NCBI GenBank assembly: GCA_018816345.1
Contig: JAHIWG010000109.1
Location: 1 to 43,957, forward strand
DNA: 43,957 nucleotides
Source: Spirochaetota bacterium
GTDB taxonomy: Bacteria; Spirochaetota; Spirochaetia; Treponematales; UBA12059
Direction of reading: 5' to 3'
Below are positions 3 to 4,838 of the stretch, piece by piece. The translations under genes and the position numbers were made by a program. The first letter of the stretch is position 1. Each line of letters starts with the position of its first letter. A model generated the notes under the pieces. The model did no database searches, was not told the DNA's origin, and saw nothing but the letters and a program-made list of their open reading frames with translations.

Positions 3-680
3 AAGGATACCGCCGAGCAGATGGCCGGTTTCTTCAAGGGAGTCACCGTCGGGGACCTGCCGGAAGGCAACGGCTGGGCGATCGAATTCCTCCAGCTATG
101 CACGCACTCCGGTACCCACCTCGACGCGCCATGGCATTATTACCCTACGCAGGACGGCGGCGAGCCCGCCTTGACCATCGATCAGATCCCGCTGGAATGG
201 TGTATTGGCAACGGCGTCAAGATGGACTTCTCCGACAAGCCGGACGGCTACAAGATTAGCGCCGGGGACGTGGAGAAGTACTTCGAGAACGCCGGCTACA
301 CGCCGAAAGAAGGCGATATCGTCCTCCTCCATACCGGCGCCGATGCCCGCTGGGGTACTCCCGCCTACCTGGTGGCCGGCCCCGGGATGAGCTACGGAGC
401 TACCATGTGGCTGCTCGACAAGGGAGTCAAGGTGGTAGGTACCGACGGCTGGAGCTGGGACGTGCCGCTTCCCTTCGAGGGGGAGGAGTTCGCGAGGACC
501 CGCGACGCCTCGATTATATGGGAGGCGCACCGCGTTGGCCGGGACAAGGCGTACTGCCATATCGAGAAGATGACCAACCTGGACAAGCTCCCCCTGACCG
601 GTTTTACCGTAAGTTGCCTGCCCGTGAGCATCAAGAGGGCTTCCGCCGGATGGTGCCGCGCCGTGGCGATCATGGATTGA
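3..680 (+). CDS. Cyclase-family (kynurenine formamidase-like) hydrolase, 5' end cut by window
   Basis: A metal-dependent amide/ester hydrolase of the cyclase family (kynurenine formamidase and isatin hydrolase are known members), expected to open a cyclic or formylated amide. The signature HSGTHLDAPWH, which supplies metal ligands and catalytic residues, lies near residue 37 of the visible part. The reading frame is open to the left edge (codons from base 3 read KDTAEQ before the first ATG at 21), and family members are usually longer at the N-terminus, where a DLS-type strand precedes this motif. The true start therefore lies outside the window. It reads in the same direction as the symporter that starts 68 bases downstream and may share its operon. 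A second, diverged family member lies at 15392-16264. The substrate is unknown. Confidence 0.85.
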   Translation, partial: KDTAEQMAGFFKGVTVGDLPEGNGWAIEFLQLCTHSGTHLDAPWHYYPTQDGGEPALTIDQIPLEWCIGNGVKMDFSDKPDGYKISAGDVEKYFENAGYTPKEGDIVLLHTGADARWGTPAYLVAGPGMSYGATMWLLDKGVKVVGTDGWSWDVPLPFEGEEFARTRDASIIWEAHRVGRDKAYCHIEKMTNLDKLPLTGFTVSCLPVSIKRASAGWCRAVAIMD

Positions 681-748: not shown

Positions 749-2728
749 ATGACATCGACCGTTATTTTCCTGATAATGTTTGTCGTCTTTTCCGCCATCC
801 TAGTTGGCGCCGGCCTGTACTCCAAGCGATGGGTTTCCGAGTCGTCCGATTTTATACTGGCCGGAAGGGAAGTATCCACCGTCATCAACATGATGGGCGT
901 ATGCGCTATCGGCTTCGCCGGCACTACGATAGCGTTGGCTCCCGGCTTTTCCGTCCTATTGGGCTTTAAGGCCGCGATCATGTGGGGCGGAATATATTGC
1001 ATATGCGGCTTGATGCTGTTCGGCGTCCTGTTCTCGGGGTTCATACGCCGTAGCGGCGCGCAGACTCTGCCCGAGTACCTGGAGATGCGCTTCAACGGCA
1101 CGGTGCGTTCCGTCGTCGCCATCACCAGCGTCATCGGCATGTCAGGAATCCTGGCTAACAATATCGTCTCCTGCGCCAACGCCATCACCGGGTTCACTGG
1201 CTGGAACCCCACCGTCATAATCGCCGTGATATTCGCGATCATCATAGGCTTTACCTTCATCTCGGGGCTGTGGGCCGCTACGATCACCGATTTCTTCCAG
1301 GTCACGATAGGCGTCGTGGCCGTTCCCCTCCTCCTTACCCTGCTCGTCAGGAAGTACGGCGGCCTGGGAGCGGTAAACGCGGCCTGGCCGGGCGGCGACT
1401 TCTTCTCCGCCGGGATCGGAGGAGCGAGCCTTCCCGGCGCAAAGCTAACCTATCCGTCGATACTTAATTTCGTAATATGCTTCGCCGCCGCGCTCGTCTG
1501 GGGGAATAACTACTATTGGATGAAGATAGCGTCGTGCCGTAGCGAGAAGGTCGCCAAGAAATCCTTCGTCCTAGCCGCCATCATCCTCGTTGCCGTCTTC
1601 ATGATCCCGCTCGGCCTCGTCGGCGCTTACGCGGGCGCTTTCTTCGGCGGCAGCTTCATTCCCGGAGGCGGCAAGCTGCTCCAGACCGCGGCGTACGGCG
1701 TGATCGTCAAGGTATTCGCCCCTATCGTCGGTTCGTTCTTCGTCATCGGCGCCGTGGCCGCCTCTATCTCGACCGCCTCGACGGCGGCACTCGGCGCTAC
1801 CGCCGTAGCCACCCGTGATATCTATCAGCGCCTCATAAAGCCCGACGCCGACGTAAAGAAGGGCCTAAAGGCGTCCAAGCTCATCATGGTCGCCATCGGT
1901 CTTCTTACCTGGGTGCTCTGCCAGTTCCCCGGCGGTCCCATCTACCTCTTCGCGTTCGCCAACTGCTGGCTAGTGCCTCCAGCCATCCTCCTTGGCCTGG
2001 GCGCGTTCTGGCCAAGGTTCAATTCCCGCGGAGCGCTGTGGGGCGCCTTGGCCGGGATGATCGCGATGGTCTCGTTTACCCTCCTCGGCGACGTGTTCAA
2101 GGTCTTCGTCATCAACAGGTACGTCTATATGGCGACGCTCGGCTTCGTCATTACGCTGGTAGTGGCCGTCGTCGCTTCGCTGACCGCCAAGTCGAAGTAC
2201 TACGGCCAAGCCGGATGGGATCGAGTCCCGAGCGCCACGAACCGCAAGGACGTAAAGCTGAACGGAACCGACCTGCAGGTGCTGCAGATGATACGCCTCG
2301 GGCACCTGTACATGGCCGACCTCACCGACGCCTTGGGCGTGGACTCGAAGACGTCCAACGCCGCCATAGAGAACCTGGACCAGGGCGGCTATATCGTCCG
2401 CGCCGGCATGAGAGGATCCAAATTCTACGTCTTCGGCATCACGGAGAAGGGCATGGCCGCCTTGCCGGCTTTGGCCGGGCCCGAGGCCGCCATGGCGAAG
2501 GAAGGACTAACGCCGCTATACATGGAGCTGCTGGACCTGGTCAAGAATCATCCCGAGAAGCAGGCGGATTTCGTGAAGCGCAATGCCATCAAGTCGTTGC
2601 ACATGGCGTCCATCTCCGCTCATCTTACCCGTCAGGGCTATATCGTCGAGGGGGGGCTCTTCAAGCGGAAGCTGAGGATTACCGATAAAGGCTCGGCCGC
2701 CATACGGGAATTCGCCGTAGAGGCTTGA
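749..2728 (+). CDS. Sodium:solute symporter (SSS family) with tandem C-terminal winged-helix domains
   Basis: The first ~485 residues are a polytopic membrane protein with about 13 hydrophobic segments and SSS-family character: an early GREVSTVINMMG stretch, then GFAGTTIALAPGF and the TAALGATAVATRDIYQR region. It should import an organic anion or similar solute with Na+. After the last membrane segment two soluble segments follow, about residues 508-575 and 590-655. Both look like winged-helix DNA-binding domains: each has a helix-turn-helix-like segment, then GGYIVRAG or QGYIVEGG, a short wing, and an ITEKG/ITDKG helix as in MarR/PadR-type proteins. SSS proteins normally end after the membrane domain, so this is an unusual fusion. 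An AAGGAG ribosome site lies 8 bases before the ATG. It is followed by thiolase and BKACE genes, suggesting it imports their substrate precursor. Confidence 0.85.
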   Translation: MTSTVIFLIMFVVFSAILVGAGLYSKRWVSESSDFILAGREVSTVINMMGVCAIGFAGTTIALAPGFSVLLGFKAAIMWGGIYCICGLMLFGVLFSGFIRRSGAQTLPEYLEMRFNGTVRSVVAITSVIGMSGILANNIVSCANAITGFTGWNPTVIIAVIFAIIIGFTFISGLWAATITDFFQVTIGVVAVPLLLTLLVRKYGGLGAVNAAWPGGDFFSAGIGGASLPGAKLTYPSILNFVICFAAALVWGNNYYWMKIASCRSEKVAKKSFVLAAIILVAVFMIPLGLVGAYAGAFFGGSFIPGGGKLLQTAAYGVIVKVFAPIVGSFFVIGAVAASISTASTAALGATAVATRDIYQRLIKPDADVKKGLKASKLIMVAIGLLTWVLCQFPGGPIYLFAFANCWLVPPAILLGLGAFWPRFNSRGALWGALAGMIAMVSFTLLGDVFKVFVINRYVYMATLGFVITLVVAVVASLTAKSKYYGQAGWDRVPSATNRKDVKLNGTDLQVLQMIRLGHLYMADLTDALGVDSKTSNAAIENLDQGGYIVRAGMRGSKFYVFGITEKGMAALPALAGPEAAMAKEGLTPLYMELLDLVKNHPEKQADFVKRNAIKSLHMASISAHLTRQGYIVEGGLFKRKLRITDKGSAAIREFAVEA

Positions 2729-2735
2729 CGGCGCT

Positions 2736-2759
2736 CGCGGGCGGTACAAGCCGCCCGCG
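2736..2759 (+). other. Intercistronic hairpin between symporter and thiolase
   Basis: CGCGGGCGG and CCGCCCGCG form a perfect 9-bp stem around a six-base loop just after the symporter stop codon. No T-run follows, so it is more likely an mRNA-stability or partial-termination element than a full intrinsic terminator. Confidence 0.5.
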
Positions 2760-2787
2760 CTCCGCGTATCGCGCTAAGGGGGTCTTG

Positions 2788-3951
2788 ATGTCCGAGCTAC
2801 TGGAAACCGTCATCGTCGCCTATGGGCGGACGGCCTGCGCCAAGGCCAGAAAAGGGTCGTTCAGGGATTCGCATCCGGTGGAGTTCGCCGCCCAGGCGCT
2901 CGCGGGAGTGGTAGACAGGGTCCCGGCCATCGATAGGGAGGAAATCGACGACGTCATCGTCGGATGCGCCATGCCCTACGGCGTGCAGGGATGGAACATA
3001 TCGAAGCTCATTCTTCAGAGGGCCCGGTTTCCCGATAGCGTCTCGTCGCAGACCGTCAACCGTTTCTGCTCCTCCGGCCTGCAGGCGTTGGCCCTCGCGA
3101 ACAACAGCATCCGCTGCGGCGAGGAGGCTATCGTCGTGGCGGGGGGAGTCGAGTCGATGAGCCTCGTCCCGATGCTGCCCGACCCCGTAACGTTCGATCC
3201 CTGGCTGGCGGAGAATCGGCCCGGGGCCTATACGGGGCCCGGGCTCACCGCCGAGGCCGTGGCGGAACGATACTCCGTCAGCCGAGGGGACATGGAGGCG
3301 ATGGCCGCCGAGAGCCATAGGCGAGCCGCCGAGGCATGGGCCAAGGGTTACTTCGATGGGCAGATCGTCCCCGTCTCGATCGTCGGCCCGGACGGGAAGA
3401 GTATCGTCGTGCGACGCGACGAGGGGGTTCGCCCCGACGCCAGTCCCGGGGGCCTATCCTCCCTGGCCCCGTGCTTTAAGGATGGCGGCCTCGTTACCGC
3501 CGGCACCTCCTCGCAGATGAGCGACGGCGCTGGCTTCCTCGTCATGATGTCGGGGGCGAAGGCGAAGGAAAAAGGGCTCCGGCCTATCGCCCGAATGCTC
3601 GCCTTCTCCACGGGCGGCGTTCCCGCGGAGATAATGGGAATCGGCCCTATCGTGGCCGTGCCGAAGGTCCTGAGGAAGACCGGGCTCGGTATCGACGACA
3701 TGGATATCATCGAGCTCAACGAGGCCTTTGCCGCCCAGGCTCTGGCCTGCATGCGTTCCCTGGGCATGGACCCCGCCAGGGTCAATCCATGGGGCGGGGC
3801 GATGGCGCTGGGGCACCCGCTAGGCGCGTCGGGCGCCATGCTGGCCTGCAAGGCTCTCGCGTACCTAGAGCGCACCGGCGGGCGTTACGGCATGGTCACC
3901 ATGTGCGTCGGAGGCGGGATGGGCGCCGCGGCCGTGTTCGAGCGGCTATAG
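2788..3951 (+). CDS. Thiolase (acetyl-CoA acetyltransferase family)
   Basis: A 387-residue thiolase catalysing CoA-dependent cleavage of a 3-ketoacyl-CoA, or the reverse condensation. The nucleophilic cysteine is in NRFCSSGLQA (Cys94). The catalytic histidine is in GHPLGASGA (about His343) and the second cysteine in MCVGGGMG (about Cys373). The length is normal for the family. The frame is open further upstream, but the ATG at 2788 has an AAGGGGGT ribosome site and begins with the expected MSELLETVIVAYGRT start. It sits between the SSS symporter and the BKACE gene. BKACE enzymes release acetoacetate, which after activation to acetoacetyl-CoA would be a thiolase substrate, so the pair makes sense as a short catabolic route. 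Whether it prefers acetoacetyl-CoA or longer chains cannot be read from the sequence. Confidence 0.93.
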   Translation: MSELLETVIVAYGRTACAKARKGSFRDSHPVEFAAQALAGVVDRVPAIDREEIDDVIVGCAMPYGVQGWNISKLILQRARFPDSVSSQTVNRFCSSGLQALALANNSIRCGEEAIVVAGGVESMSLVPMLPDPVTFDPWLAENRPGAYTGPGLTAEAVAERYSVSRGDMEAMAAESHRRAAEAWAKGYFDGQIVPVSIVGPDGKSIVVRRDEGVRPDASPGGLSSLAPCFKDGGLVTAGTSSQMSDGAGFLVMMSGAKAKEKGLRPIARMLAFSTGGVPAEIMGIGPIVAVPKVLRKTGLGIDDMDIIELNEAFAAQALACMRSLGMDPARVNPWGGAMALGHPLGASGAMLACKALAYLERTGGRYGMVTMCVGGGMGAAAVFERL

Positions 3952-3995: not shown

Positions 3996-4838
3996 ATGAA
4001 CAAGCGCATCATTACCGTGGCGCCGACCGGAGCGTGGCCTACCAAGAAAGAGAACCCAAACGTACCGCTGCGGCCCGCTGAGATAGCGGACGAGGTCTAT
4101 GGCTGCTGGAAGGAGGGGGCCGCCGTCTGCCATATACACGTGCGCGACGACGACTCCAGGCCGACCATGGACTTAGGCAAATTCGAGGAGACCGTCCGGC
4201 TCATCAGGGCCCGCAAGGACTGCGATATAATCGTCAACCTGACTACCTCTGGCGGAATCAATCTGAAGGAGGACGATCGCTGCCGCCCATTCTTCGAGTT
4301 GAGGCCCGAGATGGCCACCTTCGACTGCGGTTCCATGAACTGGCAGCACTCCGCCGTATTCGAGAACCATCCGCTATTCCTGGAGAGAATCGGGGCGATG
4401 ATGCAGGATTCGGGCGTAAAGCCGGAGATCGAGACCTTCGACCCCGGCATGATATACAACGCCGGCTACTACCTGAGGAAGGGCGTGCTGAAGGCTCCCC
4501 TGCATTTCCAGTTCTGCATGGGCGTCCCAGGCGGCATCAAGGCCAGCGCCAAGAACCTGGTCTTCATGAAGGATACCATGGACGAGGTGGCTCCCGGCTC
4601 GACGTGGTCGGCCTTCGGTGTCGGAGCTGGCGCGATGGAGATACTGTACTCGGGCGTCGCGATGGGAGGCCATGTCCGCGTCGGCATGGAGGACAACGTG
4701 ATGTACAGGAAGGGCCAGCCGGCCGACGGGAACAGGCAGTTCGTCGCCCGGGCCAGGCGCGTCATAGAGGAATTCGGTTGCGATATCGCTACCCCCGCCG
4801 AGGCCCGCCAGATACTCGGCCTCTCCCCTCGGGCCTGA
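3996..4838 (+). CDS. Beta-keto acid cleavage enzyme (BKACE, former DUF849)
   Basis: Members of this family, first characterised as 3-keto-5-aminohexanoate cleavage enzyme (Kce), use acetyl-CoA and a beta-keto acid to give acetoacetate and a new acyl-CoA. The 280-residue length is typical. The metal site is visible as HIHVRD (His46, His48) and the C-terminal glutamate in GMEDNVMY (Glu232); FCMGVPGG and TSGG are other family motifs. At position 14, where I recall lysine-pathway Kce having a glutamate that holds the substrate amino group, this protein has Trp (TGAWPT). A non-amino keto acid substrate is therefore likely; this point rests on memory of the Kce sequence. An ATAAGGAG ribosome site precedes the ATG. 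It closes the gene set that starts with the symporter. Confidence 0.9.
   Translation: MNKRIITVAPTGAWPTKKENPNVPLRPAEIADEVYGCWKEGAAVCHIHVRDDDSRPTMDLGKFEETVRLIRARKDCDIIVNLTTSGGINLKEDDRCRPFFELRPEMATFDCGSMNWQHSAVFENHPLFLERIGAMMQDSGVKPEIETFDPGMIYNAGYYLRKGVLKAPLHFQFCMGVPGGIKASAKNLVFMKDTMDEVAPGSTWSAFGVGAGAMEILYSGVAMGGHVRVGMEDNVMYRKGQPADGNRQFVARARRVIEEFGCDIATPAEARQILGLSPRA

Follow-up and report, generated by a model that had tools for sequence, protein, structure and literature searches.

An SSS-family transporter with two C-terminal MarR-like winged-helix domains in spirochaetes and Bacillota

The open reading frame at positions 749–2728 of the window (the whole 43,957-nt stretch of Spirochaetota DNA that was analyzed) is confirmed to encode an SSS transporter followed by two MarR-like winged helices. 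The frame starts with ATG and lies behind a ribosome-binding site rated as good (AAGGAGAAAGACAAATG); its domains and operon partners are listed in Table 1. We explain this architecture best as a Na+-coupled symporter with an obligate cytoplasmic regulatory tail, whose winged-helix pair would have been reused mainly for protein contact, a reading with about an even chance of being correct. With moderate confidence, the tail may be regarded as a regulatory contact module. No described example of an SSS-winged-helix fusion was found in the literature searched, in agreement with the earlier note on this DNA, which knew of none; an absence there is not proof.

Table 1. Coordinates of the fused gene, its domains and its operon partners in the window.
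Feature	Position (nt)	Strand	Remarks
Cyclase-family hydrolase (PF04199), operon partner	21–680	+	Most relatives also have it 5′ of the transporter gene
SSS transporter and two winged-helix domains, one protein	749–2728	+	659 aa
SSS/SLC5 transporter domain, residues 1–~481	749–2191	+	Pfam SSF 35–436; Foldseek of the full model
Linker, residues 482–501, conserved K-Y-Y-G...W	2192–2251	+	The split transporter also ends in it
Winged helix 1 (wH1), residues ~502–572	2252–2464	+	Net acidic; aromatic wing G-S-K-F-Y, without D-x-R
wH1 recognition helix, residues 533–545	2345–2383	+	DSSP of the model, charge count
Winged helix 2 (wH2), residues ~589–656	2513–2716	+	Strongly basic; conserved H-L-T-R-x-G-Y...E-x-G-L-F-K-R-K
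wH2 recognition helix, residues 616–628	2594–2632	+	Model, charge count
Thiolase, operon partner	2788–3951	+	Likely start ATG 2788, homologous start
Beta-keto acid cleavage enzyme (BKACE, PF05853), operon partner	3996–4838	+	Pfam

By domain and fold, the transporter is a member of the SSS family (TC 2.A.21). Pfam SSF (PF00474) matches residues 35–436 with E = 1.2e-23 and 84.1 bits, against a cut-off of 22.8. The NCBIfam sss model TIGR00813 scores 113.5 bits, below its curated cut-off of 184, which marks the transporter as belonging to a divergent SSS subfamily. A Foldseek search with the full model returned SGLT1/2, SiaT, vSGLT and NIS with E-values down to 1e-13, and the TM-score to the SLC5 fold, taken by target length, reached 0.81 for a model that is only modestly confident (pLDDT 76). 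Residues S341 and T342 align with the Ser-Ser pair of the SGLT1 Na2 site and are invariant in 20 homologues. Together with the SSF fold, this pair suggests Na+-coupled uptake by the SSS domain, and the fused protein would be competent for transport. Signalling members of the family have been described: CbrA, MxtR/CrbS and PrlS are fusions of an SSS transporter with a sensor kinase, CbrA transports histidine, and the reviewed signalling SSS transporters act mainly via histidine-kinase-type modules (PMC7918813). The protein studied here resembles the CbrA type in joining an SSS domain to a C-terminal cytoplasmic module, which serves signalling in that type, but it carries two winged helices where CbrA has a STAC, PAS and kinase tail. 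Indeed, no kinase, PAS, STAC or HisKA/HATPase Pfam domain matches anywhere in the 659 residues, which rules out the SSS-kinase type.

The tail alone, modelled by AlphaFold with 16 homologues (pLDDT 88, pTM 0.83), folds into two tandem winged helices, so that the two successive C-terminal domains noticed earlier are upheld and a fold other than the winged helix is not what the prediction gives. They had been described as MarR/PadR-type. The MarR part of this description stands, both halves of the tail matching MarR-family chains in VIA-align with Z of 10–11, while PadR was rejected, as no PadR family matched. Among Pfam families, HTH_27 (PF13463) matches wH1 at residues 504–568 above its curated cut-off, none exceeds its cut-off in wH2, and MarR_2 (cut-off 27) is missed both by the tail alone (26.8 bits) and by the whole protein (21.2 bits). 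As judged from the model, the winged-helix core known from MarR is present in both tail domains. Unlike MarR regulators, however, the tail is fused to a transporter, lacks the D-x-R wing and displays no long N- and C-terminal dimer helices in a model that was built as a monomer. Given the absence of the D-x-R wing in the comparison below, we do not file the tail as a MarR regulator. ScpB, the kleisin partner of SMC, makes protein contacts through its tandem winged helices. It was the top Foldseek match of the tandem tail and likewise places such domains in tandem within a single short protein, but the match is weak, the whole-length superposition is poor (TM 0.28), and ScpB is soluble.

For a comparison of DNA-contact features with 16 tails, 28 stand-alone MarR-type proteins were drawn from six of the genomes involved, and charge was counted per structural element. 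The mean net charge of the wH1 recognition helix is -1.1 in the tails versus +1.1 in the 28 MarR-type proteins, and the D-x-R/K wing, present in 24 of these 28, occurs in neither domain of any of the 16 tails. In wH2, the mean charge is +2.6 for the recognition helix and +2.6 for the wing, giving +5.2 for both elements versus +2.3 in the MarR set. The same division holds among 15 diverse tails, where the wH1 domain is never net positive and wH2 always carries +4 to +11. Across the wide family, the most conserved residues include D527, D532, E541, D544 and the F559-Y560 wing in wH1, and R628, G630, Y631, G636 and R640 in wH2. The recognition-helix and wing charge on which the earlier note let DNA contact depend is therefore missing from wH1, which has neither MarR-like charge nor D-x-R, and not from wH2, which is more basic than MarR. 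By these features wH1 looks to be out of DNA work, while wH2 could contact DNA, lipid or an acidic protein. Thus, an acidic wH1 without D-x-R followed by a basic wH2 points to one domain retired from DNA and another potentially contacting it.

The fusion, sought in other genomes as had been proposed, recurs in more than 25 homologues, mostly in Bacillota and in a few relatives of Treponema. Scanning a single genome for each species yielded 20 core loci at 55–85% identity, hosted by Flavonifractor, other Oscillospiraceae, Youngiibacter, Tissierella, Fusibacter, Eubacterium ramulus, Enterococcus and a Treponema MAG; the whole tail is found in all 19 complete ones. The presence of the same tail in these 19 full-length homologues and in diverged ones rules out a chimeric assembly, a frameshift or a chance reading frame. 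The closest homologue outside the window's genome is 85% identical and comes from the Treponema MAG (L017), and the most diverged fused homologue (L102:7759–9786) is 30% identical. A profile of the tail gave one match per genome, always fused, in 10 of the first 11 genomes tested; in G015 and in G070, the eleventh genome, a contig end truncates the gene. In broader samples, and counting the query genomes themselves, the profile matched 1 of 391 Clostridia genomes at high score, 2 of 393 spirochaete genomes, and 6 of 398 and 4 of 200 genomes in two further Bacillota samples. The fused gene is therefore a rare accessory gene. The dN/dS ratios, 0.02–0.29 for the tail and 0.02–0.12 for the transporter, indicate that the tail is under purifying selection. 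In the tree, the window protein sits among Bacillota (support 81/85), a position compatible with horizontal transfer.

In one genome (G1298), the two parts occur as separate neighbours (L098:5029–7068). There, a stop codon follows the conserved KPKYYG..W linker of the transporter, and some 34 bases downstream, behind an AAGGAGG ribosome-binding site, a separate gene encodes both winged helices as a protein of 161 aa. Two fused copies are also present in this genome, and the split transporter is nested within the fused family in the tree. This nesting suggests fission, with an uncertain order of events, as long branches meet at this point of the tree. The unfused pair shows that the tail need not be joined to the transporter but can accompany it in trans, in the way that FeoC accompanies FeoB. 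FeoC is a winged-helix protein. Encoded beside the transporter FeoB, it acts on the stability of the latter (PMC10710835), and the separate small protein of L098 resembles it in this arrangement. On the other hand, FeoB is an unrelated transporter and FeoC is a single winged helix with Fe-S cysteines; the 659 residues contain no Pfam match to FeoC, and the tail has no cysteine.

The gene order at the homologous loci is cyclase, transporter, CoA-transferase, thiolase and BKACE, the CoA-transferase not being part of every locus. In the window, the thiolase frame taken mechanically opens at TTG 2725 (2725–3951) and overlaps the transporter stop. The earlier note had envisaged a membrane-bound transcription factor, to be checked on the promoter before position 749 or on neighbouring operons. 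Action at a promoter before 749 is not supported: the gap of 68 bases in front of the gene lies inside the operon and holds a ribosome-binding site only, no promoter-like or palindromic element being seen there by eye, and a promoter or operator directly 5′ of 749 was rejected on this ground. In the relatives, a sigma-54 -24/-12 promoter (TGGCAC-N5-TTGCT, mostly with 0–1 mismatch) instead precedes the gene that opens the operon, as seen in 16 of the core loci and in 6 diverged ones. When the 20 core loci are read on both strands (391 kb), sites with at most one mismatch number just 20, and 15 of them are these operon promoters. A gene for a PAS/AAA+/Fis-type sigma-54 activator lies next to the operon in 15 of these 20 loci, in the spirochaete G015 and, among the 7 diverged loci with sufficiently long flanks read, in 6. 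The window contig starts 20 bases 5′ of the cyclase gene, so that its own promoter and activator are outside the view of the contig. By comparison with the relatives, the 85%-identical Treponema MAG among them, the window's operon would likewise be under sigma-54 control. The best candidate activator elsewhere in the same genome (G000:C162, 39% identity) was rejected, its neighbourhood being without the other operon genes, and the true activator is probably off the contig.

Some loci depart from this arrangement or add to it. The stretch read around L102 has no sigma-54 promoter or activator, which means that this partner is not universal. The neighbours there are a UbiD gene and a GAF/PucR-type regulator, indicating that a different pathway uses the same architecture; by eye, genes resembling molybdenum hydroxylase also adjoin it. 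At L103:5639–8952 (G1343), the fused copy follows directly after a sigma-54 activator and precedes a probable membrane protein of 446 aa without Pfam match. Finally, palindromic repeats such as GTGTCAATATATGTTGACAC and GTGTAAAC...TATACAC lie 5′ of the sigma-54 promoter at L013:3651–4130 and L004:2240–2502 and are probably activator sites.

As to the function of the operon, the presence of cyclase, thiolase and BKACE is best explained by a putative anaerobic catabolic operon. The set fits the pattern of the phloroglucinol degradation cluster of Clostridium scatologenes (DPGC, TAL, thiolase), which combines cyclase, BKACE, thiolase and CoA-transferase (PMC10470551). However, a phloroglucinol reductase, a dehydrogenase and a major-family transporter also belong to that cluster, and none was seen beside the window operon. 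Phloroglucinol as the substrate by analogy was rejected, as the reductase and dehydrogenase are absent from the window's gene cluster and BKACE scores below the NCBIfam equivalog cut-offs. Our guess is a cyclic beta-diketone or lactone.

Taken with the features of the tail, this setting bears on its role. The sigma-54 promoter and dedicated activator already supply control of the operon, which counts in favor of a tail engaged in protein contact. Recruitment for protein contact, the second option of the earlier note, is accordingly the better fit, with a DNA role of wH2 still conceivable. In such a mechanism, wH1, with its conserved acidic residues, its aromatic wing and its lack of MarR DNA-contact features, would be the likely docking surface, and the basic wH2 may form a second one. 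The tail would most likely tune uptake, stability or partner recruitment after synthesis, and may also report transport to the sigma-54 activator of the operon. The co-divergence of tail and activator given below also speaks for this reading. Against it stand the basic wH2, which is like that of a DNA binder, the stand-alone winged-helix pair, which resembles a soluble transcription factor, the weakening of the co-divergence once the cyclase is included, and L102 with its lack of the activator.

A more far-reaching view, which we hold only tentatively and at somewhat worse than even chances, makes the transporter itself a transcriptional controller, the tail coupling SSS transport to expression through either wH2-DNA contact or capture of the sigma-54 activator. 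If true, this would be a one-protein sensor of substrate uptake without a kinase, and the natural split form would work in trans.

The first of these routes is the main rival to a protein-contact tail, and we consider it rather unlikely. The protein would be a membrane-tethered transcription factor in the manner of CadC/ToxR. Substrate or flux would be sensed by the transporter, and wH2, supported by wH1 as a scaffold, would bind DNA either at the protein's own operon or at other places. The MarR-type fold, the basic wH2 of all 15 diverse tails, the stand-alone tail of L098 and the GTGTAAA/TTTACAC-like palindromic repeats 5′ of some relatives' operons agree with it. However, operon control is explained by the sigma-54 promoter and its activator, whose upstream sites account more simply for the repeats; no promoter was seen before 749, wH1 is without the D-x-R wing and a basic recognition helix, and the model has no long MarR dimer helices. 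CadC and ToxR are membrane-integrated transcription factors that likewise bear a winged helix on the cytoplasmic side (PMC5430869). Unlike the present protein, they have a single-span anchor and an N-terminal Trans_reg_C domain of another winged-helix family, and CadC binds DNA; here, Trans_reg_C gives no Pfam match and the tail is C-terminal to a multi-span transporter.

The second route is one form of the protein-contact explanation and appears less probable still: the tail would hold the PAS-AAA+ activator at the membrane and free or activate it upon transport. PspA and PspF set a precedent for membrane-side binding of a sigma-54 activator. Besides the adjacency of the activator gene at most core and diverged loci, divergence of the tail tracks that of the activator once the transporter is accounted for (partial Mantel r = 0.50, p = 0.0002), whereas divergence of the transporter does not (partial r = -0.02). 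On the other hand, the cyclase co-varies similarly and lowers the tail-activator r to 0.32 when included, the co-divergence is not significant by partial Mantel test in the close core set, L102 is without the activator, and the activator has a PAS sensor of its own. Finally, it is very improbable that wH2 acts as an electrostatic sensor, binding anionic lipid head groups and gating transport by ionic strength or membrane charge, since this would leave the conserved acidic and aromatic wH1 and the stand-alone form unexplained, even though its basic charge is constant across tails and the basic helix-turn-helix of OpuA is a precedent for such sensing (PMC10710835).

Fused regulatory domains are common on transporters, among them CBS, PAS, UspA and cyclic-nucleotide domains (PMC10710835), and the winged-helix pair adds to this list. 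A conserved SSS subfamily having such a pair in place of a kinase, in some cases encoded separately, is a compact system for studying how transport and regulation may be linked, and the surrounding sigma-54 operon makes the role of the tail directly testable.
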